Assembly (NCBI GenBank): GCA_014055465.1
Contig: WIAF01000005.1
Coordinates: 62,001-126,000 of the forward strand
Source of the DNA: Nitrospira sp. CR1.1
GTDB taxonomy: Bacteria; Nitrospirota; Nitrospiria; Nitrospirales; Nitrospiraceae
DNA: 64,000 nucleotides
Direction: 5' to 3'
The position numbers and the translations under genes were made by a program. The notes beneath the pieces are model-generated. The model was not told where the DNA came from and ran no database searches. It worked only from the letters and a program-made list of their open reading frames with translations. How positions within the stretch are numbered: position 1 is the first letter of the stretch; each line of letters begins with the position of its first letter. Positions 223 to 47,924 of this stretch are shown here, piece after piece.

Positions 223-249
223 TTCTTGAGGATTAGGCAGAACTCTGAC

Positions 250-1500
250 ATGGCTTCGACAAAACGTATCCCCATTGATCAGCTCACCGTCGGTATGTTT
301 ATCGCGGGTTTGGATCAACCCTGGTACAAGACGCCGTTTCTGCTCCATAAATGGCTGGTATCCAATCCCGATGACATCGTTCAACTCAAACGGCACGGCA
401 TTCAGGTCGTCACCATAGATACAGATCGAGGGGTGGATGTAGGGGCAGCCCCCATCGCCGTCACGGAAGCGCCTCCTTCGTTGCCGGAACCTTCCCCCGC
501 GCCAAGTGACATGGTCGAGGCTGCCACGAACGGCCACGCGTCGCATGCCGGGGCGGCAGCGGCGGTCTATCGAGAGGCCATGGCAGCGATCGAACGGGTC
601 TTCACCGACATTGAAGCGGGTCAGCCGCCCAAGCTCGAGGCACTCAAACCCGTGGTGAGCAAACTGCTGAAGCAGATCATCGAGCAACCCGAAGCGATGA
701 TGATCCAGTTTTGTCTGGATAAAATGCGCCGCTTCGACGGCACTCTCGCCAATCATGGCATGGATGTCTGCGTCCTGACGCTCATTCTCGCTGTGGAAAA
801 CGGGTGCACGGAATCGGAGATGGAAGCGCTCGGGGTGGGCGCGCTTCTCCACGATATCGGATTTGTCCGTCTCCCGCGGAACATTTATCGGAAAACCTCG
901 GCCCTAACCGAGCAGGAACAGGTGCTGATGCGGCAACATCCGCAGCTGGCGGCCACTGTGTTGTCGCAAGCCGACCGAGTGCCGGAGACGGTGACCAGGA
1001 TCATTGCAGAACATCACGAATTTCAGGACGGGACTGGCTTTCCCAAACTGGTGAAGGCCGGCGGGATTTCTCCGCTGACCCAACTGATGGCGCTGGCGGA
1101 CGCCTATGACGATCTGGTGACGACCAGATATGGCCGCCCGCCCCTGCTGCCCCATGACGCGATTCGGCAGCTCTTCGTGTTGGGGGCCAAAGGGCGGTAC
1201 GACAAAACGTTAGTTGAGGTCGCGATCAAGGTGTTGGGCGTCTATCCCCTGGGAAGTCTCATCAAGCTCAATACCAGCGAGTGTGCGGTCGTCATCGGCC
1301 TCAATCATGAAGACCGGCTGCGTCCGCGAATCCGGATCATCAGACGGCCAGATGGGGAGATCCAGAATCCTCCTATCGACACCGACCTTCAAAACCAGCC
1401 CGACGACCAACCGGTGCGCTCGATTCTCCGCGCCATGGATCCCCGGCAGGAACAGATCGATCTCCCGCAATTTCTTGATGTCGCAATAGGTGGTGCGTAA
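250..1500 (+). CDS. HD-GYP domain protein (c-di-GMP phosphodiesterase-like)
   Basis: A 416-residue protein with an N-terminal DUF3391-like segment (about 1-60), a Pro/Ala-rich linker and an HD-GYP domain (about 160-345). Visible motifs, numbered from the ATG at 250, are HD at 201-202, HHE at 255-257, and DGTGFP at 260-265 with Phe in the GYP position. The Lys that normally follows HDIG is Phe (HDIGF), so activity may be altered. HD-GYP proteins hydrolyse c-di-GMP, often lowering it to favour motility. An in-frame TTG at 226 exists, but the ATG at 250 gives normal spacing to AGGCAG. The hybrid kinase gene starts 2 bases after the stop, so they are probably cotranscribed, and the candidate sigma-28 promoter ties both to the flagellar regulon. 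Confidence 0.85.
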
Positions 1501-1502
1501 AC

Positions 1503-13588: not shown

Positions 13589-14473
13589 TCAGGCCACAAT
13601 CGTCGAGGTGGGCGCCGCAGAATTCGCGAGCATGTTCTCTGGGCCGGATATCCCCGGGGCGTGGGTCTGCGCTGCCTCCAGGGCACGGGTGGCTGCGTCG
13701 AGCAGGACATTGGGATCAAGAGCGTCGCGGGTGGAGAGACCGACACCGACCCGGCTGGTCAGGAAGACTTCCTGGTGATCGAGGGTAATCGGCAGAGCGA
13801 TAGCCCCCTGCATTTTCCTGGCGAGAACCATCACCTCATCGAGACCCGTCACCTGCTCCAGCAACACCGCAAACGTCCGTTCGGCCACCCTCGCCACTGT
13901 GTCCGTGGTGCGCAAGGCGCTCTTCACGCGAGCCGCCTCGATCCGGTAGATGAGATGGCGGTTCAGTTCGGCCGACATTTCGGCGGCAGGAATGAAATAG
14001 TCCAGCTCGATCATGAGCACCGCCACCTGGCGGCCATGCTGTTGGGCGCGGATCAGGGCCTGATTGAGGAGCGAGCAGAAGAGGCGATTCAACGGTAAAC
14101 CGGTGACCGGATCGTATGTGCTTTTCACGGCATCCTCTGACGCATTCCAGCGCCTCTGCGCGGTGGAGGTGCGGCTGTGCGGCGTCCAGAAGCTCGCCCC
14201 GAAAATCACCAGGGTAAACGCCACTCCAATCGAGATCATCACGGGGTAGGCCGTTAAAGCGGAGACGGTCAGGAGGCCGATGGCCGCCGTCCAGTATAAG
14301 CCGCCGGCCATGAACAGAAGACAGGCCAGCACGCCGAATCGGGCAACGGCATATGACCGGAAGTGGGCCTCATCATCAGACCAGGCCTGCCGGTGGACGG
14401 GCTCCGGTCCGGCGGGAGCAGGCGAATCGTTGGATGCAGGTCGAGGCACGCGCATACGCGGGAAGAACCTCAA
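13589..14473 (-). CDS. Membrane protein with a degenerate GGDEF domain (probable c-di-GMP receptor)
   Basis: A 294-residue protein with two transmembrane helices (about 46-68 and 72-96) and a cytoplasmic GGDEF-like domain (about 118-280). The catalytic GGDEF motif is replaced by A197-E-R-T-F201, so synthesis of c-di-GMP is unlikely. The inhibitory-site motif R188-T-T-D191 sits at the usual spacing, five residues before it, suggesting it can still bind c-di-GMP. The gene stands alone between fliA and flgF and has a candidate sigma-28 promoter (14505-14532) whose -35 overlaps the fliA terminator. A c-di-GMP-sensing role in late flagellar function is inference. Confidence 0.8.
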   Translation of the reverse strand: MRFFPRMRVPRPASNDSPAPAGPEPVHRQAWSDDEAHFRSYAVARFGVLACLLFMAGGLYWTAAIGLLTVSALTAYPVMISIGVAFTLVIFGASFWTPHSRTSTAQRRWNASEDAVKSTYDPVTGLPLNRLFCSLLNQALIRAQQHGRQVAVLMIELDYFIPAAEMSAELNRHLIYRIEAARVKSALRTTDTVARVAERTFAVLLEQVTGLDEVMVLARKMQGAIALPITLDHQEVFLTSRVGVGLSTRDALDPNVLLDAATRALEAAQTHAPGISGPENMLANSAAPTSTIVA

Positions 14474-28707: not shown

Positions 28708-29340
28708 CTACGGTGTCGTCAGCAATTGTTCGGTCAGCCGGGCTGCGCGCTCCGGTTTGACCTCCGCAAGAATGGCTCCAGCTGATTTGCCTTTGAGCAG
28801 CCTGAGGACCTCGAGCGCCTTTCGTTCGGGCATGCGCTCCAGTCTGGCAGCAGCCTCTTCGGCCGGCATGGCTTCGTAGATCTTCGCCAATTGGGCTTGA
28901 TTGACATTGACAGTCGGAGCGGTTTTGACCGGCGTCTTCACCTTGTCGGCCTCGCCCGCTCCCTTGGCTTGAGCGGCCTGGCGGCGCTTCTTCTCCGCCT
29001 CCACGGCTTGTTCGTGGCGCGTCACAATCTGCTCCAGCTCAGCCTTGAGTTCCAAGAGATGCGTCTCCGATCCGCGCACGGCCGTCTCACGCTTGTCTAA
29101 GAGCCGTTTGCGTTGCTCCAACATCTCGTAGATTTCCCGCGGCGCGCTCGTCGCCGGCCCTTGCACGTCTTGTTTCACGCTTTCCGGTTTCGGCTCTTCC
29201 TTCTGTGCCGCAGGTGCCGGCTTCGCATCCTCAGTCGCATGCGCCGTCGCGACGCATGTGATCAGAAGGGCACTCACGAGCCATCGGGCCGCCGCACCCC
29301 CACGCACACGCTGCTCAGCACGGCTTCCGGTCTGGGTCAT
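28708..29340 (-). CDS. MotE-like periplasmic protein (MgtE N-terminal-type domain)
   Basis: A 210-residue protein with a signal peptide or N-terminal anchor (about 20-36), a Pro/Glu-rich stretch, a long coiled coil (about 70-125) and a C-terminal MgtE_N-type helical domain (IYEAMPAEEAAARLERM, then LEVLRLLKGKSAGAILAEVKP). Similar proteins next to fliJ are called MotE and chaperone the stator protein MotC in Rhizobium; here its partner is unknown. The ATG at 29340 overlaps the fliJ stop (ATGA) and has GGGAG upstream. Confidence 0.8.
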   Translation of the reverse strand: MTQTGSRAEQRVRGGAAARWLVSALLITCVATAHATEDAKPAPAAQKEEPKPESVKQDVQGPATSAPREIYEMLEQRKRLLDKRETAVRGSETHLLELKAELEQIVTRHEQAVEAEKKRRQAAQAKGAGEADKVKTPVKTAPTVNVNQAQLAKIYEAMPAEEAAARLERMPERKALEVLRLLKGKSAGAILAEVKPERAARLTEQLLTTP

Positions 29341-29777
29341 GCCCGTTCTCCCTTTTGCAATGGGCTTCGCCTCCAAGCGCGTTCATCGAGCAATTGTTGA
29401 TCCTGGCGTTCGCGACGGCGTCGTAAGTCCAACGCAGCGCGCGCCGTGAGGAGATCCAGTTTCTTACGATACTGCATCGCTTCGAGGAGTTCCGCGCGCT
29501 TCTCTTCCATTTTGGCCTGATCCGCTGCCAGCACGTGCTCTAAATGTTTCCGTGCCGCGATCGCCTGGTCCATGGCATCGAGGTGGCCGTAGACTTGATC
29601 CACAGTGCTTCCTGTTTGAACCTGAAGCAGATATCGATCGGCATCGGCTTTCGCTCGTGATTCCAACATGGCCATCCGATTTACGGTCTCCTGCAGGGCA
29701 TGACTGAGTTCCGCCAATTCCAATTTGGCAACTTCTTCCAGTTGCAGCGCATAGGTCCTGAGGACGGTCACGTTCAT
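29337..29777 (-). CDS. fliJ: Flagellar export chaperone-escort protein FliJ
   Basis: A 146-residue, almost wholly coiled-coil protein (VAKLELAELSHALQETVNRM and following helices; LEHVLAADQAKMEEKRAELLEAMQ). FliJ resembles the F1 gamma stalk, sits in the centre of the FliI hexamer and links it to FlhA. It overlaps the fliI stop by 4 bases (ATGA). The family is defined more by position and helix pattern than sequence. Confidence 0.9.
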   Translation of the reverse strand: MNVTVLRTYALQLEEVAKLELAELSHALQETVNRMAMLESRAKADADRYLLQVQTGSTVDQVYGHLDAMDQAIAARKHLEHVLAADQAKMEEKRAELLEAMQYRKKLDLLTARAALDLRRRRERQDQQLLDERAWRRSPLQKGERA

Positions 29778-31081
29778 TGAATCGTCCCGGCCAGCGCCAG
29801 GAGCGTGTCGATTGACTGCGGCAATCCGACCGCTTGCTTGGTTTCCTGCCGGAGAAACGACGTGATACCGTCATGGGCGGAAACGGCTTTATCGAGATCT
29901 TTGCTCGTACCGGGTTTGTACGCGCCCAGGGTGATCAGATCCTCCGAGCGTCGATAGAGCGCGGTGCGTTCAAGCACCAGGCGCGCGGCCGCATAGTGCG
30001 CAGGCGTCACAATGTCCCGCATCACCCGGCTAGTGCTCTGAAGAATATCGATGGCGGGAAAATGATTGCGCGCGGCGAGTTCACGCGACAGCACGATATG
30101 ACCGTCAAGAATAGAGCGCACGGCATCCGCTACCGGATCATTGAGGTCGTCACCGTCGACCAGTACCGTGTACAAGCCGGTGATGCTGCCACCGCTTTGC
30201 GCCGGCCCAACCCGCTCGAGTAACTTCGGCAGGACGGCAAACACCGACGGGGTGTAGCCTTTCGTCGTCGGAGGTTCCCCGATGGCCAATCCGACTTCCC
30301 GCTGACTGTAGGCCAAGCGTGAGAGCGAGTCCATCATGAGCAGGACGTGTTTGCCGCAATCACGAAAATATTCCGCAATGGCGGTCGCGACGAGCGCGCC
30401 CCGGATTCGAACCAGCGGAGGTTGGTCGGAGGTCGCCACAACGACAATGGAACGGGCCCGCGCTTCAGGCGTGAGGTCGCGCTCGAGAAACTCTTTGACT
30501 TCGCGCCCCCGCTCGCCGACCAGGGCAATCACTCGTACATCCGCCTGCGTATAGCGGCTGATCATACCCAGGAGCACGCTTTTCCCCACGCCGGAGCCGG
30601 CGAACACGCCGATTTTTTGCCCCTGGCCGCACGTCAATAATGCATTGATGGCCCGAATACCAAGATCGACTGGCTGGGTGATTCGCGCCCGATGCAGAGG
30701 ATTGAGTGGCGCCGCGTACAAGGGAACCCGCACGTCGCTACGGATGGGCGGCAGCCCGTCCAACGGATGTCCGAGCCCGTCAAAGATACGCCCCAACATC
30801 TGCGGGCCGACGGGTACGGACGCGACATGTCCCTTCATTACCACGCGACTGCCGGGCCCGATGCCCTGCATTTCACCTAATGGCATCAGCAATACGCGAT
30901 CTTCCCGAAACCCCACGACTTCCGCCATGACGGCTCCGTGACCTCCTTCACGGGTGATCTCACAGACTTCCCCGACCGAGGTGAACGGTCCCGAGGCTTC
31001 AATGACGATGCCGACGGCCTGAGCCACCCTGCCCGTGACCGCCAGGGGCTCGACATGTTCCAATCGTTCGCTAAGCTTCAC
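29774..31081 (-). CDS. fliI: Flagellum-specific export ATPase FliI
   Basis: A 435-residue F1-beta-like ATPase. The P-loop AGSGVGKS is about residues 161-168, followed by ALVGERGREVKEFLE, a Walker B region with LLMMDSLSRLA and the signature SGGSITGLYTVLVDGDD. FliI powers or primes substrate loading at the export gate and is regulated by FliH. Its start overlaps the end of the REC-FliH gene by 11 bases, so the two are translationally coupled. Confidence 0.97.
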   Translation of the reverse strand: MKLSERLEHVEPLAVTGRVAQAVGIVIEASGPFTSVGEVCEITREGGHGAVMAEVVGFREDRVLLMPLGEMQGIGPGSRVVMKGHVASVPVGPQMLGRIFDGLGHPLDGLPPIRSDVRVPLYAAPLNPLHRARITQPVDLGIRAINALLTCGQGQKIGVFAGSGVGKSVLLGMISRYTQADVRVIALVGERGREVKEFLERDLTPEARARSIVVVATSDQPPLVRIRGALVATAIAEYFRDCGKHVLLMMDSLSRLAYSQREVGLAIGEPPTTKGYTPSVFAVLPKLLERVGPAQSGGSITGLYTVLVDGDDLNDPVADAVRSILDGHIVLSRELAARNHFPAIDILQSTSRVMRDIVTPAHYAAARLVLERTALYRRSEDLITLGAYKPGTSKDLDKAVSAHDGITSFLRQETKQAVGLPQSIDTLLALAGTIQ

Positions 31082-32120
31082 CGGTATCCCGCTTTCTCAA
31101 GGCTTCGCCCAGCCGCAACAATTGGGAATCCAGCGTCGCATCGATCAACAGGCTCTGCGCCTGGACAAGGCATCCGCCGGGGCTGATGGCGGGGTCGGTC
31201 TCAAACTTCAAGGTCAGGAGCCCGTGCGGCGTCTGGCTCAGTGCAGTACGCGCCAATTCGAGCGCGGCAAGATCCGACGGATGCACACGGACGCGGACGA
31301 GACCACTTTCATGCAAATGGGCGAGCGCGCTTCGGACTTGTGCCGCGATCATGTCGCGTTTGTCCGTAACGGCTTCCCGCACGACCTTGTGTGCAATCAT
31401 GAAAGACAGCGACGCGATTTCCTCTTCAACCGTCTCATGCAGGCTCTGCCAGGTTTCTTCCAAGCGCGTCATCAGCGACGCCACCAGGTTCTGTTCCCGC
31501 TGCCGAGCCACCGCCACTCTTTCAGTTGAACGTTTTTCCCCTTCCGCCACTCCCCGCTCAAACTCGGTGAGATCCTCGGTTCCAAAAGGCCGATTGCCCC
31601 GGCTGAAATCCGCGAGGGGTACGGGGCGCAATTGAATGTTGCCGGATCGAATCAAGGTTCGGGTGAGGACGGTATTTTCCTGTCGCAACCGGTAGAGTTC
31701 CAGCAGTCTCGACACCGCCAGCCGGACCAACTCGACCTGAAACGGTTTGGTAAGAAAATCCGCCGCCCCCGCTTTCATGGCCCGAACGGCCAGTTCAATA
31801 TTGCCGTGGCCGGTCATCACGATCCCAAGCAGGCGATTATCGATGTCCAACGCCTGCTGCAGAAACGTGATGCCATCGGCGCCGCCGAGCTGGACATCCA
31901 CGATCACGACGGCAACGGAACGGGTCCGGAGATGACTCAGCGCTTCCTGAACAGACCCGGCGGTGAGAACAGGATGTCCCGTAGACTCGAGCATCTCGGC
32001 CAACAACAAGCAGATGGACGGCTCGTCGTCGACGATCAGGACGGCCCGCCGCGCCAGCTCCTTCTCCGACTCGACGGAAGCCGCCATCGAAACGCCCGTG
32101 CCCGCGGCAGCGTTCCCCAT
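31071..32120 (-). CDS. fliH: Response-regulator receiver domain fused to FliH (REC-FliH)
   Basis: A 349-residue two-part protein. Residues about 25-145 form a complete receiver domain: acidic pair D31-D32, phosphoacceptor D75 (VVIVDVQLGG), T103 in VMTGHG and K125 in FLTKPF. Residues about 185-349 are FliH: a charged coiled coil, then VEEEIASLSFMIAHKVVREA, VRVRVHPSDL and ISPGGCLVQAQSLLIDATLD. FliH inhibits and positions the ATPase FliI and docks it on FliN. Normal FliH is about 230 residues without a receiver. The fusion lies in frame between fliG (ATG abuts the fliG stop, ribosome site GAGGAG) and fliI (11-base overlap), so it is the only FliH here. Phosphorylation-dependent export control is inference. 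Confidence 0.92.
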   Translation of the reverse strand: MGNAAAGTGVSMAASVESEKELARRAVLIVDDEPSICLLLAEMLESTGHPVLTAGSVQEALSHLRTRSVAVVIVDVQLGGADGITFLQQALDIDNRLLGIVMTGHGNIELAVRAMKAGAADFLTKPFQVELVRLAVSRLLELYRLRQENTVLTRTLIRSGNIQLRPVPLADFSRGNRPFGTEDLTEFERGVAEGEKRSTERVAVARQREQNLVASLMTRLEETWQSLHETVEEEIASLSFMIAHKVVREAVTDKRDMIAAQVRSALAHLHESGLVRVRVHPSDLAALELARTALSQTPHGLLTLKFETDPAISPGGCLVQAQSLLIDATLDSQLLRLGEALRKRDTGEA

Positions 32121-33122
32121 TTACAATAACTCCTCGCCTCCGCCGCCTCCGATCACGATGCGACCTTCCTCCTCGAGCTTACGGCAGACCTTGAGGATAT
32201 TCTGTTGAGCTTTTTCAACATCCGACACCTTGACCGGTCCGCGCGTCTCCATGTCCTCCTTGAGCATTTCTGCCGCCCGGCTGGACATATTCTTCAGGAA
32301 CTTCTCTTTGATTTCCGGCGTCGCGCCCCGCAACGCGATCGGCAGGTCTTCCTTGCTGATTTCCTTCATGAGCTCTTGCATCCCGCGAGAATCCAGATCC
32401 ACCAGGTCATCAAAGACAAACATCAAGGCGCGGATACTTTCTGCCAGAGCCTGGTCACGCTCGGTGATCTTCGCCATGATGGCGCCTTCGGTATTCTTAT
32501 CGACGCGGGTCAGAATCTCGGCCATCAGCTCGGCCCCGCCCACGGACATGCTCGACATCCCCATCGAAGCCGACAAAATTTCCTGCAAGCTGTCGCTCAG
32601 CTCCGCCAGCACCTCAGGCTGTACCTCTTGCATCGTCGCCAGCCGCAGCGAAACGTCCGCGTGCAAATGCACCGGCAAGAGGGCCAGGACGGCGCTGCCC
32701 TGTTCGGCTTCCATTTGTCCCAGGCACACGGCAATGGTCTGGGGATGTTCGATTTTGAGGATCTGCGCGATCGTACGAGCATCGACCCATTTCAAGGCGT
32801 CAATGCCCGGATAGGTTTTGGTGTTCAGGGATTCCATCATGCGCGCTGCTTTTTCAGGGCCCAGCGCCTTTTTCAGGATGGCTTCCATGAATTCGCGGCC
32901 TTCGAATTGGACCTCGCCGGATGAACTCGCCTGCTCAAATTCCGCGATCACGCTGTCCTCTTCCTGCTTGGTGATATTCGCGGTTTCTTTCATAAAGGCC
33001 CCGAGCTTGCGAATATCTTTCGGGTCGAGCGTTTTCATGACCGCCGCTGCGGCCTCTTCCCCGATCGCCCGCAGCAGGATGGCGGCTTTTTGCGCGCCGG
33101 TGAGCTCTTTATTGATGGCCAT
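32121..33122 (-). CDS. fliG: Flagellar motor switch protein FliG
   Basis: A 333-residue switch protein. The N-domain begins KELTGAQKAAILLRAIGEE, the middle domain carries the EHPQTIAVCL motif, and the C-domain has FVFDDLVDLDSRGMQELMKEI with the charged torque helix. FliG binds FliF and interacts with MotA. The C-terminus has a Gly-rich end (IGGGGGEELL). It starts 5 bases after fliF. Confidence 0.98.
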   Translation of the reverse strand: MAINKELTGAQKAAILLRAIGEEAAAAVMKTLDPKDIRKLGAFMKETANITKQEEDSVIAEFEQASSSGEVQFEGREFMEAILKKALGPEKAARMMESLNTKTYPGIDALKWVDARTIAQILKIEHPQTIAVCLGQMEAEQGSAVLALLPVHLHADVSLRLATMQEVQPEVLAELSDSLQEILSASMGMSSMSVGGAELMAEILTRVDKNTEGAIMAKITERDQALAESIRALMFVFDDLVDLDSRGMQELMKEISKEDLPIALRGATPEIKEKFLKNMSSRAAEMLKEDMETRGPVKVSDVEKAQQNILKVCRKLEEEGRIVIGGGGGEELL

Positions 33123-36136: not shown

Positions 36137-37555
36137 TCAGGGTTTTTCTGCCTCTACCTGATAACCGAGATCGCGATATTCCCGTAATTTATTTCGCAAC
36201 GTGCGAATACTGATGCCTAACTCCTTGGCCGCATGGGTACGATTGTCTTTCACTCGTGCCAAGGTCTTGAAGATGAGGTCCCGTTCCATTTCCCACAACG
36301 ACCCGTGAGCGGATGGCGCCACGAGCGCCTCCACGGTTTCGACCGGTTGCATGGGAACCGTTCCATCCCCCGGCATCAAATGATCGACGTCAACCGCGTT
36401 TCCGGTTGTCACCAAAATGGCGCGTTCCATGACATTTTCAAGTTCGCGCACGTTTCCCTTCCATGCGCGCTGTTGGAGATCCGCGATGGCGCGTTCGGAC
36501 AAGGTCGGCACGGTCAGGCCGTTGCGCTGCGCCGACGAACGGAGAAAATGCCTGGCGAGGAGCGGGATGTCACCCGGGCGTTCGCGGAGCGGAGGCACCG
36601 TGACGGGGAAGACATTCAAGCGGTAAAACAGATCCTCCCGAAAACGCCCTTGAGTCACCTCGTGGTAGAGCGAGCGATTCGTCGTGGCGATCACGCGGAT
36701 ATTGACGGGGACCGGGTCGCGCCCACCGATGCGATCGACTTCCCTCTCTTGCAGAACCCGCAACAATTTCGATTGCAGGCCCAAATTCATTTCGCTGATT
36801 TCATCGAGAAACAACGTGCCGGTATGGGCCATTTCAAACTTGCCCAGCTTTTTCTGAATCGCTCCGGTAAACGCCCCGCGCTCATGGCCGAACAATTCAC
36901 TTTCCAGCAGACTGTCCGGAAGCGCGGCGCAATTCAGCGCCACAAACGGACGATGGGCACGAGGGCTTCTCGCATGAATGTAGCGCGCCAACAATTCTTT
37001 ACCCGTCCCGCTTTCGCCGCTGATCAACACGGTGGCTTGGCTGGCCGCGACGCCCTCGAGGGTCGTGAGCAGGCGAATCATGCCGGGGTCTTGTGTCAGG
37101 ATCGCGCGGGCTTCCAGTGCCGCCGGAGTATCCTGCTCATCCGGCTCGGCGCTGGCTTGCAGATTGAAGATCACCCGCTCAAGCAGGTCGGTGGAAAACG
37201 GTTTTAAAATGTAATCGTTCGCGCCATATTTCATGGCCTCCACCGCCGTCTCGACGGTCCCGTAGGCGGTCATGAGAATGATGTAGGTATTGGGCGCTTT
37301 CTGTTTTAACGCTTTGACGAGTTCAAGCCCGTTCAGGCGCGGCATCTTCAAGTCAGTCACCACTAGCCAGGGCTTCAGTCGTTCGACCTGCTCGATCGCA
37401 TCCGCCCCGTCGATGGCGCCACGCACTTGATACCCCATTCGACGCACCGTTTCCGACAAGGCCGTCCGCATCGAAGGTTCATCATCGACGATCAAGACGA
37501 GTCGGGCCTCTTCGGCAGAAGCTGAAGGTCCCTGCAAAGCTGGTTGCGCGCTCAT
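36137..37555 (-). CDS. Sigma-54-dependent response regulator, FlrC/FleR-like
   Basis: A 472-residue NtrC-type activator: receiver domain with phosphoacceptor D68 (VVTDLKMP), AAA+ domain with Walker A GESGTGKE (about 180-187) and intact sigma-54 contact loop GAFTGA (227-232), and a Fis-type helix-turn-helix (NRTHAAKELGISIRTLRNKL). Its ATG overlaps the stop of the PAS kinase gene (ATGA), and it directly precedes flgB and its sigma-54 promoter. By position and architecture it is the probable activator of the sigma-54 flagellar genes; exact targets are inference. Confidence 0.9.
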   Translation of the reverse strand: MSAQPALQGPSASAEEARLVLIVDDEPSMRTALSETVRRMGYQVRGAIDGADAIEQVERLKPWLVVTDLKMPRLNGLELVKALKQKAPNTYIILMTAYGTVETAVEAMKYGANDYILKPFSTDLLERVIFNLQASAEPDEQDTPAALEARAILTQDPGMIRLLTTLEGVAASQATVLISGESGTGKELLARYIHARSPRAHRPFVALNCAALPDSLLESELFGHERGAFTGAIQKKLGKFEMAHTGTLFLDEISEMNLGLQSKLLRVLQEREVDRIGGRDPVPVNIRVIATTNRSLYHEVTQGRFREDLFYRLNVFPVTVPPLRERPGDIPLLARHFLRSSAQRNGLTVPTLSERAIADLQQRAWKGNVRELENVMERAILVTTGNAVDVDHLMPGDGTVPMQPVETVEALVAPSAHGSLWEMERDLIFKTLARVKDNRTHAAKELGISIRTLRNKLREYRDLGYQVEAEKP

Positions 37556-38841
37556 TCATACCTCTTTTCTTCTGTTAGGCTGACAATCTGGCGGGACGCC
37601 TCCGAATGATCGGATAGGGTGTCACTCGAGGCAGGCGTCGACGGCGTGTGTACGGGCCCTTGCGGCAACGTGATCAAGAACGAGGTGCCATGTCCGGGGT
37701 GGCTCTCCACATCGATCCGTCCATGATGGGCTTCGATCAACGCGTGCACGATGGCAAGTCCCAAGCCGGTCCCCTGATCTTTCGTGGTAAAGAAGGGATC
37801 AAAGACCCGCGACTGCAATTCGGCCGGGATACCCGTGCCGGTATCACTCACCGTGAGTTGGATGGCCGGCGATTCCTGGAGTTGAGGCGGGGCAGGACAG
37901 GCGGCCAGGGTGAGGGTTCCGCCCTCTGGCATGGCCTGGACCGCGTTCAAGACCAGATTCAAGAGAACCTGCTTCATTTTCGCGCCGTCGCACCAGAGCC
38001 GGGGCACGAGCGGATGCACCTGACACCGCACCTCGACAGAGTCCGGCGGAATGGCGTGACTGGCCAGCGTCAGCACCTCCCGGATCAGGAATTCTGTGTC
38101 ATGCCATCCTCGCCGCGAACAGTCGGGTCTGGTGTATACGAGCAGATTGGACAGAAGCCGATCCATGGATTGAACAGCCATGGAAATATGTTCCGCATAA
38201 TTCCGGAGTTGAGGCTGGTCACGGAGATCCTTTCGCAACATCGACGCGAACAATTCCACACTGCCCAGGGGATTCCGGATTTCGTGGGCGATGCTGCCCA
38301 CCATCTGCCCCATGGCCTCCAGGCGGTTGCGCCGCTGCAACCGATCTTCGAGCTGACGAATACGCGTGACGTCATGAATCAGCACGAGTTTCCCGATCAG
38401 ATTCCCCGTTTCGTCGGTCAAATCTGTCTGTGACAGGGCGATGGTGACGCCGCTGGGAAGCACGAGCGGGTACTCGCCATGGTCTTTTCGAATCTCTTCC
38501 AATACGGCGCTGGCTCGACGCCCTCGCAATTCAGCCTGCGGCACGCCCAGGAGCAACTCCGTCGAATGATTGCACCGCACCACAATATCTTGAGAATCGG
38601 CCACGATGACGCCGGTATCCAACGATTCCAAGACCGCGGTCACATGGGCACGCATGTCCTCGGTTTCACGCAGATGCTCGCGCAGACTCGCATTGGTTTG
38701 CGCGAGTTCGAGATCCATTTGCTGCAGGCGTGTAGTTAACGCGTCGTACGACTGCTGCAGCACGGTTGCGGCCTGATCAAAATCTCGAAACGCGCGCGTC
38801 AGCAAGTCATTGTTGATCGTGTCTCCCTCCGGCTTGGTCAC
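37552..38841 (-). CDS. PAS-domain sensor histidine kinase, FlrB/FleS-like
   Basis: A 429-residue cytosolic kinase: N-terminal coiled coil (about 20-66), PAS domain (about 67-160), HisKA with H186 (SIAHEIRNPLG) and an ATPase domain ([39 protein letters not shown]). No membrane helix is seen, matching FlrB/FleS, which sense an internal flagellar assembly state. It starts at a GTG that overlaps the TPR gene stop (GTGA) and is coupled to the regulator downstream. Confidence 0.9.
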   Translation of the reverse strand: MTKPEGDTINNDLLTRAFRDFDQAATVLQQSYDALTTRLQQMDLELAQTNASLREHLRETEDMRAHVTAVLESLDTGVIVADSQDIVVRCNHSTELLLGVPQAELRGRRASAVLEEIRKDHGEYPLVLPSGVTIALSQTDLTDETGNLIGKLVLIHDVTRIRQLEDRLQRRNRLEAMGQMVGSIAHEIRNPLGSVELFASMLRKDLRDQPQLRNYAEHISMAVQSMDRLLSNLLVYTRPDCSRRGWHDTEFLIREVLTLASHAIPPDSVEVRCQVHPLVPRLWCDGAKMKQVLLNLVLNAVQAMPEGGTLTLAACPAPPQLQESPAIQLTVSDTGTGIPAELQSRVFDPFFTTKDQGTGLGLAIVHALIEAHHGRIDVESHPGHGTSFLITLPQGPVHTPSTPASSDTLSDHSEASRQIVSLTEEKRYE

Positions 38842-41054
38842 GGTTTTTTCCCTCGTTTGTCGGCCGGCGGTTCCGGCAATTCAGTTGCCAACACGGCCGC
38901 GATGCGGCGAACCAGACTATCGGAATTCACACTCAGTGCGCGCAGCCCGCTTTTGGCAAAATCCTCGCGTTTTGACCCGCGTGCCAGCTGAACCATTTGC
39001 AATTGAGCCCAGGCTTCCTGCACCGGCTCGAGTCCTGCGACGAGCGCCTCTTTATACATGGCCAGCGCCGGCGCCTGGCGATTCAAACGAGCCAGCACAT
39101 CGGCATACCGCAGCAGGTCCCCGGCGGAGAGTTCCCGACCCGCTTTGATCAGGCCGTCGTAGATCGCTGCCGCCTCGGCGTCTTGTTTGGACTGAGCCAA
39201 CACGCCGGCAACTTTCAGCTGCACCATCGTGCGGTCAGGATGCCGCGGATTGTGCGCCAGCCATTGCTGGCCGAGTTTGAGCAGGGCGGCGAGATTGCCT
39301 TCTCCCTCAAACGAGGTCAGAATTCCACGCAATGCCTCTCCAGAAAACCGACCGGTAGGAAATTGCAGGCGATACCGCTCAAACACTGCCCTCGCCGCCC
39401 GCATATCTTTTTGTTCCATGTAACTGTGGGCCAGCCCCATCAACGCCGTTTCATGTACCTTCTCTGCTTTAGGATCGCGAACCAAAGACTGAAACAGCCG
39501 CGCAGACTCCACGGGGAAGCCCAGGCGACGATGCGCGTCTGCGACGTTGAGCAGCAACTCCGTGCCGGCATACAAGCGGTCGGCGAAGGGCCCATGCCGA
39601 TGGAATACATTGATTAGTTCAAAATCATCCTCTGCCTTGAGGGCTGCCTCCAGGCGTGGGCGAAGGAAGCGGACCAGCTGCGCGCCGCTTCTTTCCGGCC
39701 AAGGATCGTTTTCAAACTTGCCTGTGCGCAGCACCGCCAGTTCATACGCGCGGAGGGCATCCTCCGGTTTGCCCGCTCTGTCCAAGGTTTCCCCAAGGTG
39801 AAACAGGGCTTCGCTGCCGACTATCGAATTCTCATAATCTTTGGCACTCTGTTCGAATACCTGACGAGGACTCAGCATTTCTCCCGGCTTCAACGGAACA
39901 TTTTCCAGATGCGCCGCGATGGTGTGTCGAAGATTGACCTCCTCGCCCTCCGGATCCAGATGTTCCTGCACATCGGCATACCGAAGCCTGGCGGTGGCGG
40001 CAATCGGCGCATCAGGGTATTGGCTCAGTAGCGCTGCGTAGAAGATGCTTGATTCAGCCCAACGCCCCGCCTCCTTGTAACTATCGGCGAGGTAGGTCAG
40101 CACGAACGGCGTTTCGGGCCGGGTTGGATACAAATTGTAAAAATGGAGCAACTGCTCCCGCATCACCGGCCCCCGCTTGGATTCCCCGGCGGTATCGGCA
40201 TACCGCAACAGCGCAAAGGCATCGCTCCGAAGCGCGGCAGGCCACCGGCTGGCGATACTTTCGTAGAGCACATCGGCGTCCTTCAAGCGGCTCATCCGAT
40301 AGAGACTGTGAGCTTCTCCCAGCGAGGCAGATACCAACAGGGTAGGATCGACGGTGCGTTTCAACACATGGTCGAAGGTGTGAATGCTCTCTTTCCAGTT
40401 CTTCAATCCTCGCTGGACATAGCCCAGTCCGAGCATGGCCCGATTGGCATCAAACGAGTCGCGCTCCGAGAGAGAGAGGGCATGCTGATAGGCAATCTGC
40501 GCTTCCTGAAACCATCCTTCGACCCGATACACATCGCCGATCCGCCAGGCTGCCCGCTTCGCATTCGTCGATTGCGGATTCTCGCGCATCACTGTTTTGT
40601 ACTGATCGATGATGTCCAGCGGCCGGACTTCAGGGTCGTGACTCTTGAGCGCACTTTCCGCCAGAAACGCCTGGATCGAAGGCTTGAGCGGCGACTCGCG
40701 GTAATCCCGAAGCAGATTGCTGAACTGCAGGCGTGCCTCCGGATAGAGCCCGTGGTTGTACAGACTCACTCCTTGTTCGAACTGTTTCCATTCCGGACGA
40801 TCGGTCGTGCGTTCAAACCGTGGTCCCGGATCGGGCAAGGCCCCACGCACGAGTTCTGATGGCTCCGGCATCATGGCCGGCAACTCTTGCCGCATCGTGG
40901 ATAAGCCGCCTGCAGCCATGGCAGACCCTGTTCCCACGAACAGGAAACAACTGAAAACGTAGCCTGTGCAGGCGAGGGCGTAGCGGGATCTAGAGGATAA
41001 GAGGTGCACAGGAGCCGAATCAGCAAGTCCTGTGCCCCTATGGAAATCCGGCAA
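38838..41054 (-). CDS. Large TPR-repeat exported protein in the flagellar regulator operon
   Basis: Up to 738 residues: a signal peptide ending near MAAGG (about residues 24-48), then about fifteen helical TPR-like repeats, for example VSLYNHGLYPEARLQFSNLL, IAYQHALSLSERDSFDANRA and FEQSAKDYENSIVGSEALFH. TPR arrays scaffold protein complexes; here it is likely periplasmic. The start is uncertain: TTG at 41052-41054 or GTG at 41007-41009 (which places the signal peptide at the N-terminus). It overlaps the kinase gene by 4 bases, an unusual companion for an FlrB/FlrC pair. Specific function is unknown. Confidence 0.75.
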   Translation of the reverse strand: MPDFHRGTGLADSAPVHLLSSRSRYALACTGYVFSCFLFVGTGSAMAAGGLSTMRQELPAMMPEPSELVRGALPDPGPRFERTTDRPEWKQFEQGVSLYNHGLYPEARLQFSNLLRDYRESPLKPSIQAFLAESALKSHDPEVRPLDIIDQYKTVMRENPQSTNAKRAAWRIGDVYRVEGWFQEAQIAYQHALSLSERDSFDANRAMLGLGYVQRGLKNWKESIHTFDHVLKRTVDPTLLVSASLGEAHSLYRMSRLKDADVLYESIASRWPAALRSDAFALLRYADTAGESKRGPVMREQLLHFYNLYPTRPETPFVLTYLADSYKEAGRWAESSIFYAALLSQYPDAPIAATARLRYADVQEHLDPEGEEVNLRHTIAAHLENVPLKPGEMLSPRQVFEQSAKDYENSIVGSEALFHLGETLDRAGKPEDALRAYELAVLRTGKFENDPWPERSGAQLVRFLRPRLEAALKAEDDFELINVFHRHGPFADRLYAGTELLLNVADAHRRLGFPVESARLFQSLVRDPKAEKVHETALMGLAHSYMEQKDMRAARAVFERYRLQFPTGRFSGEALRGILTSFEGEGNLAALLKLGQQWLAHNPRHPDRTMVQLKVAGVLAQSKQDAEAAAIYDGLIKAGRELSAGDLLRYADVLARLNRQAPALAMYKEALVAGLEPVQEAWAQLQMVQLARGSKREDFAKSGLRALSVNSDSLVRRIAAVLATELPEPPADKRGKKP

Positions 41055-41182: not shown

Positions 41183-42598
41183 TCAGTTTTGAATGGAGTA
41201 CCCATGACTTTTCGGATCGAACCCTTTCCGTTTTAATTTTTCCACGAGCGTAGTCCGATTCACTTGAAGCAGCTGAGCTGCCCGACTGGTTATGCCATTG
41301 GCTTTTCGCAGGGCTTCCCCGATAAGACGGTTCTCGTAATGTTCGAGTTCCTTCGTCAAATTGATGCCATCTTCAGAGAAGCGAATAAACTGCTCGGGAG
41401 CTTCGGCCGCCTTTCCTCCTACCATTTTTAACGAACGTTCCGGGAGATCGGCCACGGTGATCATGCCCCTCTTCTTCAAGACGCAGAGGCGTTCAATCAT
41501 GTTCTCAAGTTCCCGGATATTTCCCGGCCATTCCTCTTCTGTCATGCGAACCAATGCGTCCGGCTCCATGCCGAGAATCTCCGTCCGGCGCAATTGATTG
41601 AATTGGGCGATAAAATGATTGACCAAGAGCGGAATGTCGCTGCGGCGCTCCCGCAACGGAGGAATGTGAATGGGAATGACATGCAATCGATAATACAAAT
41701 CCTGTCGGAACCGGCGCTCCTGAACGGCCTGCGCCAAATCCTGATTGGTGGCCGCGATAATGCGCACATCCACGTTAATCGTCCTGGTTCCACCGACTCG
41801 TTCGAAGCATCGCTCCTGTAAAACGCGCAGTAGCTTCACTTGCAATGGCAAACTCATCTCGCCGACTTCGTCTAGGAAGATGGTGCCGCCATGGGCCAGT
41901 TCAAACCGACCAAGCCGGGTGTGCGCGGCTCCTGTAAACGCCCCCTTTTCATGGCCGAACAGCTCCGACTCCAGCAGCGTTTCCGGAATCGCACCGCAAT
42001 TAACAGGCACTAGAGGGCGGTCTCGTCGCATGCTATTAAAATGCAGCATGCGCGCGATCAATTCTTTTCCCGTTCCGCTCTCCCCTTCAATCAATACCGT
42101 ACTGTCGCTATCAGCGACCTTTTCGACGAAATCCAGCACCATCCGCATCGGCGCACTGGTGCCTACCAAATGCTCAAGCCGGTATTGATCTCGCACCGCT
42201 TTTCGAAGAAGGTGGTTTTCCTGTTTAAGTTTGTATACGTCTAATGCTTTCCTCACCACCACTGCCACCGTGTCAGGCTCGAAAGGCTTGGTGATGAAGT
42301 CGAACGCGCCGGCCTTCATCGCTCGCACAGCATAATCGACCGTTCCGTATCCGGTCATCACGATCGCAATAACCTTAGAATCGATCTTTGAGATTCTGTC
42401 GATCGTTTCCAGCCCATCGATCCCCGGCATCTGAAGATCTGTCAGCACCACGTGTACCGGCTGGTCCTTCACCGCCTCCACCCCGTCCACCCCGTTCGAC
42501 ATGACCGTCACCTGATGACCTTCACTCGTGAGTGTTTCCGCCAATAGCTGCCGGACTGCCGGGTCATCATCAATCACGAGAATGTGTGACTGGCTCAT
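41183..42598 (-). CDS. Sigma-54-dependent response regulator (NtrC/AtoC type)
   Basis: A 471-residue regulator: receiver domain with D54 (VVLTDLQMP) and VMTGYG, AAA+ domain with Walker A GESGTGKE (about 172-179) and GAFTGA (219-224), and a Fis-type helix-turn-helix (GITSRAAQLLQVNRTTLVEKL). It stands alone, about 130 bases upstream of the TPR-kinase-regulator operon. It could be the top regulator of the flagellar cascade or an unrelated NtrC-type protein. Its receiver strongly resembles the one fused to FliH. Confidence 0.88.
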   Translation of the reverse strand: MSQSHILVIDDDPAVRQLLAETLTSEGHQVTVMSNGVDGVEAVKDQPVHVVLTDLQMPGIDGLETIDRISKIDSKVIAIVMTGYGTVDYAVRAMKAGAFDFITKPFEPDTVAVVVRKALDVYKLKQENHLLRKAVRDQYRLEHLVGTSAPMRMVLDFVEKVADSDSTVLIEGESGTGKELIARMLHFNSMRRDRPLVPVNCGAIPETLLESELFGHEKGAFTGAAHTRLGRFELAHGGTIFLDEVGEMSLPLQVKLLRVLQERCFERVGGTRTINVDVRIIAATNQDLAQAVQERRFRQDLYYRLHVIPIHIPPLRERRSDIPLLVNHFIAQFNQLRRTEILGMEPDALVRMTEEEWPGNIRELENMIERLCVLKKRGMITVADLPERSLKMVGGKAAEAPEQFIRFSEDGINLTKELEHYENRLIGEALRKANGITSRAAQLLQVNRTTLVEKLKRKGFDPKSHGYSIQN

Positions 42599-43774: not shown

Positions 43775-44116
43775 ATGCCAAAGCATTTTAGGATTCGCAC
43801 GTACCAGAGGGTCAGGCGTTGCGATACTGGCTACTACCTGTCAGAAGATTTTCTTGGAAAAGGGATAATCCGGGATATTTCGAATGGAGGATGGCGTATG
43901 CAGGGTGATCATGAAGTCAGGATAGGCATGAAACTTACATTGCGAATGGAACTTCCTGAGGAAAACTCACCGTTAGAAATAGAAGAGGCTTCAGTTCAAT
44001 GGGCCAGCGGGAAAGACTTTGGCATTCGGATTAAAAAAATCCGTCATACAACGGCAAAGCGACTAGAACGGTTAATTGGATTTCAATTTTGTTCGCTTCC
44101 CCAAATTGAGCCCTAG
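43775..44116 (+). CDS. Second single-domain PilZ protein
   Basis: A 113-residue PilZ protein with RTYQR (R8-R12) and DISNGGW motifs, both needed for c-di-GMP binding. It differs strongly from its neighbour outside these motifs, so it is not a recent duplicate. AGGAG upstream supports the ATG. Its stop codon overlaps that of the convergent regulator gene in the palindrome CTAG (44113-44116). Confidence 0.86.
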   Translation: MPKHFRIRTYQRVRRCDTGYYLSEDFLGKGIIRDISNGGWRMQGDHEVRIGMKLTLRMELPEENSPLEIEEASVQWASGKDFGIRIKKIRHTTAKRLERLIGFQFCSLPQIEP

Positions 44117-45528
44117 GCGTCTTTGACCTCCTCCGTCGTATCCTCAATTTCGGTGAGATCCAGGTCATGACGCTCCTTCAACATCGAAGGATGCAGCCCA
44201 TACTTTTTTAACATTTTATAGAAATCTGCCCGATATCGGCCTGCAAACTGAGCTGCCCGGGAAATATTTCCGCCCGTCATCTGTAATACATTCCGTAAAT
44301 ACGAGCGTTCGAATTCTTCCTTTGCTTCGGTCAAGGGTTTTAAACCCATATCGGTCGACGCCCCGGCTGATGGAAGTAGTTCCGGCGACACCATGTCCTG
44401 CCGGGACATGACCACGGCCTTTTCCACTGCATTTTCAAGTTCCCTAACATTGCCTGGCCATGGATACCCCATAAGCCTATGCATGGCTGCCGGCGTGAAT
44501 CCACGCACATCCTTGTTGGATCGTCGCGCACTCTGCTTCAAAAAATGTTGGGCCAACAGTGGAATGTCGTCCCGCCGTTCGCGCAAAGCAGGAATACTAA
44601 GCGGCACAACGGAAATTCTATAGTATAGGTCGTGCCGGAACGTCCCCAGCTTTACACATTCCGCCAGATCTTTATTCGTCGCCGTAATGATCCGCACATC
44701 GACTTTTGTCGTATACGCGGCGCCGACCTCGCGCACTTCCCGCTCCTGTACGGCGCGTAGAAGTTTTACCTGCATGGGGAGCGACATTTCTGCAATTTCG
44801 TCGAGGAAAAGTGTTCCCCCATTCGCGCTTTGGAAAAGGCCCCGCTTCGCCGTCATTGCACTGGTAAAGGCACCACGGATATGCCCGAATAACTCGCTTT
44901 CAAAAAGACTTTCGCTGATCGCGGCACAATTCAACGCCACAAACGGGCCCTTTGATCGACGGCTATTGGCATGGAGAACTCTGGCCAGCACTTCTTTTCC
45001 TGTCCCGGTTTCGCCGGTTAACAGAATGGTTGCATCTGAATCGGCGATCTGAGCAACTTGCTGAAACAATCGTTGCATGGCGGAACTTCTCGCAATGACA
45101 TTTTCCAAGCCGTAGAGCTCCTTGACCAATGATTTCAGTCGCTGGATTTCTCGAGTCATCCGCAACTGAATCAAGGCTTTATCGATAGTCGCTTTCAATT
45201 CTTTGTCATCAAATGGCTTGGTCAAATAGCCAAAGGCCCCGCGTTGCATCGCTTCGACTGCGTTGGGAATACTCCCATGCGCGGTCAGAATAATGACCGG
45301 CAGTCCCGGTTGAATCTGTAAAAGTTCCTCGGTCAGCACCAATCCATCTTCTGCCCGCAACCGCAAATCAGTAATCGCGATATCGAACGTTTCCTGCCGG
45401 GCCGCAACAAGAGCATCGCGTCCTGTTGTACAGGGCGTCACGGAAAATCCGAGAGCAGACAGCCGCATCCGCAGTAAATGCAACAGACCTTCGTCATCAT
45501 CCACAACGAGAATTCGTTCTTGTTCCAT
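44113..45528 (-). CDS. Sigma-54 response regulator, GlrR/QseF-like, with GAFTSA loop
   Basis: A 471-residue regulator: receiver with D54 (AITDLRLRAEDG), AAA+ domain with Walker A GETGTGKE (172-179), and a C-terminal Fis-type domain (GGNISRAAQFAGRYRADFYKML) closely resembling enterobacterial GlrR. The sigma-54 contact loop, normally GAFTGA, reads GAFTSA (219-224). AAGGA lies upstream of the ATG. It follows the QseG-like gene in the kinase-lipoprotein-regulator order of glrK-qseG-glrR. Confidence 0.88.
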   Translation of the reverse strand: MEQERILVVDDDEGLLHLLRMRLSALGFSVTPCTTGRDALVAARQETFDIAITDLRLRAEDGLVLTEELLQIQPGLPVIILTAHGSIPNAVEAMQRGAFGYLTKPFDDKELKATIDKALIQLRMTREIQRLKSLVKELYGLENVIARSSAMQRLFQQVAQIADSDATILLTGETGTGKEVLARVLHANSRRSKGPFVALNCAAISESLFESELFGHIRGAFTSAMTAKRGLFQSANGGTLFLDEIAEMSLPMQVKLLRAVQEREVREVGAAYTTKVDVRIITATNKDLAECVKLGTFRHDLYYRISVVPLSIPALRERRDDIPLLAQHFLKQSARRSNKDVRGFTPAAMHRLMGYPWPGNVRELENAVEKAVVMSRQDMVSPELLPSAGASTDMGLKPLTEAKEEFERSYLRNVLQMTGGNISRAAQFAGRYRADFYKMLKKYGLHPSMLKERHDLDLTEIEDTTEEVKDA

Positions 45529-45536
45529 GACGGTCC

Positions 45537-46307
45537 TTAGGGTTTGGACGGCTCCGATTGTTGCGATGGGACAAAACTTGCGGGCGGCTTGATTGGACGG
45601 GTCTTTCCTCTCATTTCCTGATCAATGTGCTTGAGCGCTTCAAGCTGGCTCGTGAGTTCTTCGATTTTTTTGTCCCGGTCGCTGACTTGCCGCTGCAGGC
45701 TTTGAAGCGTGGCCGGCTCTACCGACATGCGATGGGACTCACGCCTGGAATTGAATAACTCCGCCTTTCGCTCCTGGTTCTGAAGCTCGCGCTGCATGGC
45801 CTCGAGAGATTGAGCCTCGCTGTCCTGTAACGCACGTAATTGTTCAATGGTGAGTTCGCGGTCGAGAAGATCCCGCACTGTGCGTTCAATTGTTTGGGAA
45901 AGCACCCCTTGAGTCTGAGCGATTGCAGGCCCATTCCAGACGGAACGCATCCATGACTGATCAGGCGATACTTCACCGGCCTGCAGCAATTGCAACCAGA
46001 GTCGACTCGAAACAGCCAACTGGCTCTTGGGGGCGACGGCAATAACTTTCTCGAAGTTATGGATGGCCGACTCTCGATTTTCATACAGAGACGCCAATGC
46101 GCGGGTGAAGAATACATGATCACAGGTATTTTTACTAGCACATTTAGGCGTTGACGAGGAATCTTTACGTAAAATGGCTTGCAAAATCTTGCCCCCCCCC
46201 TCGTCGTTTAGAAAATATGGGCTCTGGTATGGGGGCGGAGGGAGGGTGCCACAGGCGGACAGGAGTCCAAAAACCACCAACACGCCTATGGAGTGACACC
46301 GCCGCAC
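45537..46307 (-). CDS. QseG/YfhG-like lipoprotein
   Basis: A 256-residue putative lipoprotein with a signal peptide and lipobox LLSAC (Cys near residue 19), and a long coiled coil in the C-terminal half (about 130-235). In enterobacteria QseG sits between the GlrK kinase and GlrR regulator genes and activates the kinase at the outer membrane; the position here is identical. It starts at a GTG sharing one base with the kinase stop (TAGTG). A run of nine G (opposite 46192-46200) near codons 36-38 could slip. Confidence 0.75.
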   Translation of the reverse strand: MRRCHSIGVLVVFGLLSACGTLPPPPYQSPYFLNDEGGGKILQAILRKDSSSTPKCASKNTCDHVFFTRALASLYENRESAIHNFEKVIAVAPKSQLAVSSRLWLQLLQAGEVSPDQSWMRSVWNGPAIAQTQGVLSQTIERTVRDLLDRELTIEQLRALQDSEAQSLEAMQRELQNQERKAELFNSRRESHRMSVEPATLQSLQRQVSDRDKKIEELTSQLEALKHIDQEMRGKTRPIKPPASFVPSQQSEPSKP

Positions 46308-47776
46308 TAGGCCAACATCCCTGATTTCGTTAGATATAAAATGAATCGCACGGTCGTCCCTTTTCCGACTTCACTTTCCACCCAAATCCTCCCGCCATGG
46401 GCTTCTACGACCTTTTTCGCAAGGGCTAACCCGAGGCCGCTGCCCACTGACACCTGTCGGTTTCTGGTACGCCCCTGATAAAACCGCTCGAAAATATGTG
46501 GCAGTTCCTCCGCCGGTATGCCGGGACCCGAATCCGCGACGTCGACAAACAGCAGCCCTTCGTCTTGCTTCGGGGTCATGTGTAGCCTGACAATGGCACC
46601 CTCGGGACTGTACTTCAACGCATTCGAGAGGAGATTGTCCAGTACTTGTTCGATGCGTGTGCTATCTGCCCTGACCCAGTGCCGTTCCACCGGGGCCTCA
46701 ATCAAGAGCTGGACATGTTTGGCATCTGCTAATAGGCGGATTTTATTGACCGAAATATCGGCGACCCGCCGGAGATCCGTCGGGACAAACCGATACTCCA
46801 TCATCCCGGACTCCATCTTCGACAGATCTAGGATCGTCGAAATGAGATACATGAGCCGCCGACTACTGTCCGACATAATGCGAAGGGTGGTCCGCTGGTC
46901 CTGTGTTAAGGGGCCGGGAATTTCATCCAGTAAGAGATGAGTGCCTTCCTGGATCGAAGCCATCGGTGTGCGCAACTCATGGGATACATGGGCGAGGAAC
47001 TCGCTTTTGATATCATCCAACTGCTGCAACTTGGTTCCCATCCACTTGACCGTTTCACCCAATTCCCGCAATTCGCGGGGCGCCTGACCATCCAGCGAAG
47101 CATTGAAATTGCCCTGCCCCATCTCCTGAATGGTGGCCTGGAGACGACGCAACGGTCGAAGAATATTGTAACTAGCCACCGCGGCCATACCGAGACCGAA
47201 GAGGAGCGCGACCAACACCAGATTGCGTGTGACGGCTTCCGCATGCACGGAGCTGGCGCGAGACTCATTTACTCCTACAGCAATCCGCCACTCATGGAGG
47301 CCGATGTACTGCTGTAGAGTTGCGACCATTTTTTCCACCATTGCCTCGCGCCGCGCATCATAGGCCGAGGGGGCCTCCGGGTGTCCGCCTGACTCAGCCA
47401 ACTGCGTTTGAAAAAGCGCCAGATGCGCCTGCTGAAGTCCCTGGACATCCTTGAGCAGTCGTATCTCTGGTTCCGGGACGTCATGAGCCAGCAATTCCTG
47501 CAGAATCTGTTGAAACTCTTTGCGCTCGGTCTCGAAACGCTCCAGAAAAGCGGCGGCAGGTACGGCCATGTATCTCTTCTCGTCCTGAACCTCCTCATAG
47601 AGCGAGGCGATTAAGCGTTTGGCTGAATCAATTTCCGGATGATGGTGGGATCCGACCTCCGTATTGAGACCGGCTAATGTCCGAATCTGCAACAACGCGT
47701 AGACATTGACGGCGGTCATTACCGCGATAATGACCACATACGTCAGCACTAATCGCCAGAAAATTGAGAGGCGCAC
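46307..47776 (-). CDS. Sensor histidine kinase, GlrK/QseE-like
   Basis: A 489-residue kinase from the GTG at 47776, which has AAGGGA upstream. N-terminal transmembrane helix (about 8-28), a periplasmic four-helix-type sensor (about 35-185), a second helix (about 186-206), HAMP, HisKA with H266 (AHVSHELRTPMAS) and an ATPase domain (LSNALKYSPEG; DSGPGIPAE; GSGLGLALAKK). Architecture and neighbours match GlrK of the GlrKR system, which in enterobacteria controls envelope-linked sRNA genes. An upstream in-frame GTG at 47848 would add 24 unlikely residues. Confidence 0.88.
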   Translation of the reverse strand: MRLSIFWRLVLTYVVIIAVMTAVNVYALLQIRTLAGLNTEVGSHHHPEIDSAKRLIASLYEEVQDEKRYMAVPAAAFLERFETERKEFQQILQELLAHDVPEPEIRLLKDVQGLQQAHLALFQTQLAESGGHPEAPSAYDARREAMVEKMVATLQQYIGLHEWRIAVGVNESRASSVHAEAVTRNLVLVALLFGLGMAAVASYNILRPLRRLQATIQEMGQGNFNASLDGQAPRELRELGETVKWMGTKLQQLDDIKSEFLAHVSHELRTPMASIQEGTHLLLDEIPGPLTQDQRTTLRIMSDSSRRLMYLISTILDLSKMESGMMEYRFVPTDLRRVADISVNKIRLLADAKHVQLLIEAPVERHWVRADSTRIEQVLDNLLSNALKYSPEGAIVRLHMTPKQDEGLLFVDVADSGPGIPAEELPHIFERFYQGRTRNRQVSVGSGLGLALAKKVVEAHGGRIWVESEVGKGTTVRFILYLTKSGMLA

Positions 47777-47924
47777 GACCAGGTCCCTTCCCTGGTGATG
47801 GACGCAAGATCCTGCAGAATCGGCAGTGCAGGTTAAGCCATACACCACTTCCCTCCTCCCCTCAACAAGTTCTCTATATTGTGCAGAAACGGCGGGTGCG
47901 TCGTCGAATCGCTGGAATCTCTTC

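Follow-up and report, generated by a model that had tools for sequence, protein, structure and literature searches.

Gene expression, chaperones and the export gate are generally held to set the pace of flagellum assembly. Regarding the export ATPase complex, an ordinary FliH (PF02108) consists of a coiled coil and a FliI-binding domain, and it is encoded by a single-copy gene in the order fliG-fliH-fliI-fliJ. In Salmonella FliH binds the export ATPase FliI through its C-terminus, and the contacts with FliN and FlhA are made at its extreme N-terminus, where Trp-7 and Trp-10 are located (PMC9114704). The nearest known post-translational control of this complex is that of c-di-GMP on FliI, a small-molecule allostery (PMC12564702, citing Trampari 2015). 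Receivers are also known elsewhere in the flagellar system. The NtrC-family flagellar regulators (FleR/FlgR/FlrC and the FleQ-like ones) combine a receiver with AAA+ and DNA-binding domains, and CheY and Cle are separate receiver proteins that act at the C-ring on rotation via FliM.

The protein that we analysed here, REC-FliH, is related to each of these. It has the coiled coil, the FliI-binding domain, the gene order and the single copy of an ordinary FliH, but a receiver and a linker precede its stalk, whereas in the other Nitrospirota examined FliH begins with a short N-terminal segment and lacks a receiver. The receiver is of the same type as that of the NtrC-family regulators; however, a Pfam scan found neither an AAA+ sigma-54 domain nor a Fis-type HTH in REC-FliH, and its output is a structural export protein. 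As in CheY and Cle, the receiver would be located at the C-ring, but here it is covalently joined to the export apparatus, and the element that would exert post-translational control is a receiver on FliH instead of a small molecule on FliI. The sequence-only reading of this DNA knew of no described system of this kind, and likewise the open-licence papers that we searched mention neither a FliH with a receiver nor a phosphorelay that controls the export ATPase.

The window, a stretch of 64,000 nucleotides from Nitrospira sp. CR1.1, contains the gene run fleS-fleR-flgB-flgC-fliE-fliF-fliG-REC-fliH-fliI-fliJ. REC-fliH (31071..32120, reverse strand, as are all the genes and domains of this run given below) is one uninterrupted open reading frame of 349 aa, with no internal stop in its translation. 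Its ATG directly follows the TAA stop codon of fliG (32121..33122) and is preceded by a GAGGAG ribosome site, and its 3'-end overlaps fliI (29774..31081), the gene of the export ATPase, by 11 bases. The FleR-like sigma-54 response regulator (36137..37555) and the FleS-like PAS-HisKA-HATPase kinase (37552..38841), both assigned by Pfam and by comparison of loci, lie at the other end of the run. Around 9 kb upstream of REC-fliH, within the same flagellar cluster and on the same strand, there is a further sigma-54 regulator, FleQ-like and with an intact receiver, which we call RR2 (41183..42598). The order fleS-fleR-flgB-flgC-fliE-fliF-fliG-(REC)fliH-fliI is unchanged across the fused loci that we fetched. 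Two less familiar genes belong to the same neighbourhood: one for an MgtE_N-domain protein (28708-29376), between fliJ and fliK, which is retained in nearly all the relatives' loci, and one for a large TPR protein (38838-41054), between RR2 and fleS, which has a same-place match in most of the fused relatives. As for the use of the machinery, a study of Nitrospira genomes noted homologues of FleQ and FleSR and mentioned flagella seen in N. inopinata, so it is probably in use in some Nitrospira species; N. japonica is reported there to have no flagellar genes (PMC5767232).

The sequence-only reading had described a complete receiver on the only FliH of the cluster, ahead of a normal FliH region. 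The first part holds for the whole genome, in which REC-FliH is the single FliH found. The Response_reg match covers residues 27-134 (31719..32042) with 83.5 bits against a cutoff of 30.2, and the catalytic set D31, D32, D75, T103 and K125 is present, the codon of the phospho-acceptor D75 being located at 31896..31898. The receiver is of the NtrC type. By sequence, DctD and NtrC1 are its closest relatives among solved receivers, and the best Foldseek matches are receivers, including NtrX and NtrC1, the 50 matches shown containing receivers and nothing that bears on the fusion. Regarding the FliH region, the match to PF02108 covers residues 210-335 (31116..31493) with 72.9 bits against a curated cutoff of 24.1 and includes the C-terminal FliI-binding domain, and the long helix or coiled-coil stalk (residues 186-267, 31320..31565) is there as well. 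The description of this region as normal holds for these two elements; the docking peptide of the N-terminus was not recognised statistically by a profile scan. The place expected for that peptide in an unfused FliH is occupied by a linker that is disordered by prediction (residues 149-185, 31566..31676). We also considered a separate short FliH translated from an internal start, and rejected it for the window gene, which has no such start with a ribosome site; some relatives have internal start codons with a ribosome site, for instance GTG 151 after AGGAG, and these are not conserved.

A fused gene of this kind might be the product of a sequencing or assembly error that joined two genes, and the distribution of the fusion bears directly on this. 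When we searched 61 related genomes with the protein, full-length matches were found in nearly all the members of the same genus (71-94% identity; one of them, G017, gave no full-length match) and in two further genera of the family (44-51%). A FliH-family search detected FliH in 228 of 396 Nitrospirota genomes and, among the matches listed, nearly all the frames of the window's family were at least 343 aa long; those of the sister family measured 217-254 aa and most of the others 200-280 aa. According to profile scans of the loci that we fetched, 50 FliH sequences have the receiver, 43 of them distinct, with Candidatus Nitrospira defluvii (L155/L236) and N. moscoviensis (L237) among the carriers; the same scans found no receiver in the FliH of four unfused members of the family (L065, L067, L071 and L080), nor in that of the loci examined from the sister family and from other Nitrospirota. 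The fusion is thus far from being missing in the relatives. The same joint recurs in dozens of independent assemblies, closed genomes included, and nothing was found in favour of an artefact, an explanation that we therefore discard as practically impossible.

In a tree built from FliI, FliG, FliF and FlgC, a single clade with support 1.0 unites the fused sequences, sister to the unfused genera of the family. The mapping of the fusion within Nitrospirota, which the sequence-only reading had proposed, hence points to one ancient event: as judged from these sequences, the fusion arose once, in an ancestor of the Nitrospira clade, and no reversal was seen. Outside Nitrospirota we saw no fusion in 615 sampled genomes (398 + 118 + 99) from three further phyla, to which Aromatoleum, a Desulfacinum MAG and a Planctomycetia MAG belong; the matches listed span the receiver only, and few candidates were scored per genome, so that rare fusions could escape this search. 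Two irregular cases appeared along the way. The draft genome G018 has two copies of REC-FliH (C33:30994-32040 and C47:17546-18592), with 91% and 80% identity to that of the window, and may be contaminated or a mixed bin. Another Nitrospirota lineage has a FliH frame of 313 aa (L099:3015-3953), longer than usual, in which the profile found no receiver.

Regarding the competence of the receiver for phosphorylation, D75, T103 and K125 are invariant in all 43 distinct fused sequences, although these include relatives with as little as 35-40% overall identity. Position 31 is D in 41 of the 43 (95%) and E in two, and position 32 is D in 39 (90%), A in three and G in one. We estimated dN/dS from four full-length comparisons, the closest ones with a dS below 1 (L003, L005, L006 and L008, dS 0.57-0.95), since dS approaches or passes saturation in pairs that are farther apart. 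The receiver gave 0.028-0.042 and the FliH part 0.064-0.075. The lowest values, 0-0.013, were those of the linker, which is thus the best conserved segment among close relatives, despite its predicted disorder. This strong purifying selection and the invariant residues across a divergent clade bear out the complete receiver with D75 of the sequence-only reading and are strong evidence for a selected receiver that, by its residues, should be competent for phosphorylation.

The retention of these residues also speaks against a receiver that has switched to another ligand, for example c-di-GMP, as in the Cle proteins. Such a change would fit with a GGDEF protein encoded within the flagellar cluster (13589-14473, adjoining fliA) and with the binding of c-di-GMP to FliI in Pseudomonas (PMC12564702). 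Nevertheless, the Arg-rich tail motif of Cle, [YF]xGP[DE][RK]R (PMC5677366), is absent from the translated REC-FliH, and we regard this switch as highly improbable.

AlphaFold models of 16 family sequences gave an architecture of a confident receiver, a disordered linker (residues 150-184), the helix 186-267 and a C-terminal FliH domain (mean pLDDT 73, pTM 0.40, monomer model). The pLDDT of the receiver was 76-92 in ten-residue blocks over residues 21-140, and its helix alpha-5 extends to about residue 148. Because the receiver is N-terminal in a FliH, whose N-terminus contacts FliN and FlhA (PMC9114704), we infer that it sits at the C-ring/FlhA end of the stalk, far from the FliI-binding end. 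This domain is most likely a working phospho-receiver at this end of the stalk, as predicted from these features. Judging purely from the position of the domain, the most likely effect of phosphorylation would be on docking, since FliH forms dimers and makes its contacts at the C-ring through the N-terminus. The phosphorelay gating of export proposed in the sequence-only reading is supported in part, by the complete and conserved receiver; however, a direct relief of FliI inhibition appears less likely than a gating of docking or localisation, because in the model the receiver is kept apart from the FliI-binding domain by a flexible linker followed by a helix of 80 residues.

It could also be that the receiver replaced the aromatic docking peptide and binds the C-ring unaided, phosphorylation mattering little. 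By eye, the unfused FliH of Nitrospirota have a short N-terminal motif, SK-I/V-IK...V..[FYW].L.E[LFV], and a peptide of this kind seemed to persist after the receiver in fused sequences, for example LHVNAFRLADL in the basal L074. We built a profile from motifs chosen by eye and scored it against shuffles, which gave no support for this persistence except in L074, the only fused lineage above the shuffles, and weakly so (p=0.0135). The values were p=0.16 for L056 and L073, p=0.5 for the REC-FliH of the window and a median p of 0.74 for most other fused sequences, a weak negative given how the motifs were picked. Another docking element is thus possible; moreover, receivers such as CheY and Cle bind FliM (PMC5677366), and D32 is lost in 4 of the 43 sequences. 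On the other hand, a pure scaffold would not need D75, T103 and K125 to be invariant down to 35-40% identity. Constitutive docking ranks next among the readings, although we consider it rather unlikely. We favour phosphorylation-controlled docking, that is, a genuine FliH stalk with a functional N-terminal phospho-receiver that controls the docking of FliH-FliI, to which we assign a probability of around 0.5.

Regarding the origin of the receiver, we built a tree of 141 receivers, 42 of them from FliH. The FliH receivers were monophyletic (0.944) and formed a clade with those of RR2, including the RR2 relatives of the sister family (support 0.996), with the FleR receivers outside. The tree thus ruled out FleR as the source in favour of an RR2-type sigma-54 regulator of the same flagellar cluster, from which, on the basis of this phylogeny, the receiver of REC-FliH descends. 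The helix after the receiver is also alike by eye (LYRLRQENTVL in REC-FliH, YKLKQENHLL in RR2). The RR2 clade and the likeness of the helix together indicate, at the level of sequence, that the receiver and the linker helix of the in-cluster regulator were joined to the N-terminus of FliH.

The leading candidate for the kinase is FleS, as a hypothesis. The activity of the kinases FlgS, FlrB and FleS depends on the MS ring, the rotor and the export apparatus (PMC7064773), so that a kinase of this type would be at work in the vicinity of FliH. In all the fused 16-kb loci that we fetched, fleS lies seven genes upstream of REC-fliH. FleS-FleR also adjoins unfused fliH in the fetched loci; therefore its presence is not specific to the fusion. 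Positions 38 and 43 of the receiver (helix 1), which we take to be kinase contacts by analogy with OmpR, are the hydrophobic L and M in REC-FliH, where RR2 mostly has E/Q and T, and they also differ between REC-FliH and FleR. Because of the difference from RR2, the kinase partner of REC-FliH may have changed relative to that of RR2. With 132 receiver matches in the genome, other kinases are possible partners, for example the hybrid kinase at 1503-4343.

The kinase question is also relevant to a role as phosphate sink or feedback sensor, in which REC-FliH would rival FleR and RR2 for the phosphoryl groups of the kinase with little effect on export, and the balance between free and docked FliH would report the state of assembly to sigma-54 transcription. 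A receiver derived from the in-cluster regulator RR2 and a gene cluster shared with FleS and FleR speak for such a role. However, the residues that probably contact the kinase are unlike those of RR2, and a sink needs neither a fusion to FliH nor a strongly conserved linker, so we consider this role improbable, more so than constitutive docking.

Under the favoured phosphorylation-controlled docking, a histidine kinase, most plausibly the FleS of the same gene run, would phosphorylate D75 of REC-FliH. Phosphorylation would act through pairing of receivers or exposure of the conserved linker and would most likely strengthen or weaken the docking of FliH2-FliI at the C-ring and the export gate. 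The delivery of export substrates would be tied in this way to the state of the kinase, for example after the checkpoint of MS ring, rotor and export gate sensed by kinases of the FlgS/FleS type. More tentatively, we predict that FliH acts here as a response regulator through which an assembly-sensing kinase tunes the docking of the ATPase and the growth of the flagellum, in parallel to sigma-54 transcription. If this is true, it would be the first case of a flagellar export apparatus in which a response regulator forms the ATPase stalk, and a phospho-switch built into that stalk would be a new control point in flagellum assembly. The regulation of the ATPase complex would be directly testable by means of D75 mutants. 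REC-FliH is conserved across the Nitrospira clade, including major nitrite oxidisers, and its origin, in which FliH acquired the receiver of a regulator encoded nearby, is a clean example of signalling rewired through domain fusion.

Other signalling genes are found elsewhere in the window. A DUF3391 HD-domain protein adjoins the hybrid kinase, which has PAS domains, two receivers and an Hpt (226-4343 for the pair). At 44113-47848 there is a row formed by a HAMP kinase (46307-47848), a lipoprotein-like protein to which Pfam has no match (45537-46307) and a regulator of the sigma-54 type (44113-45528), which by its gene order presumably resembles QseE-QseG-QseF (GlrK/GlrR).
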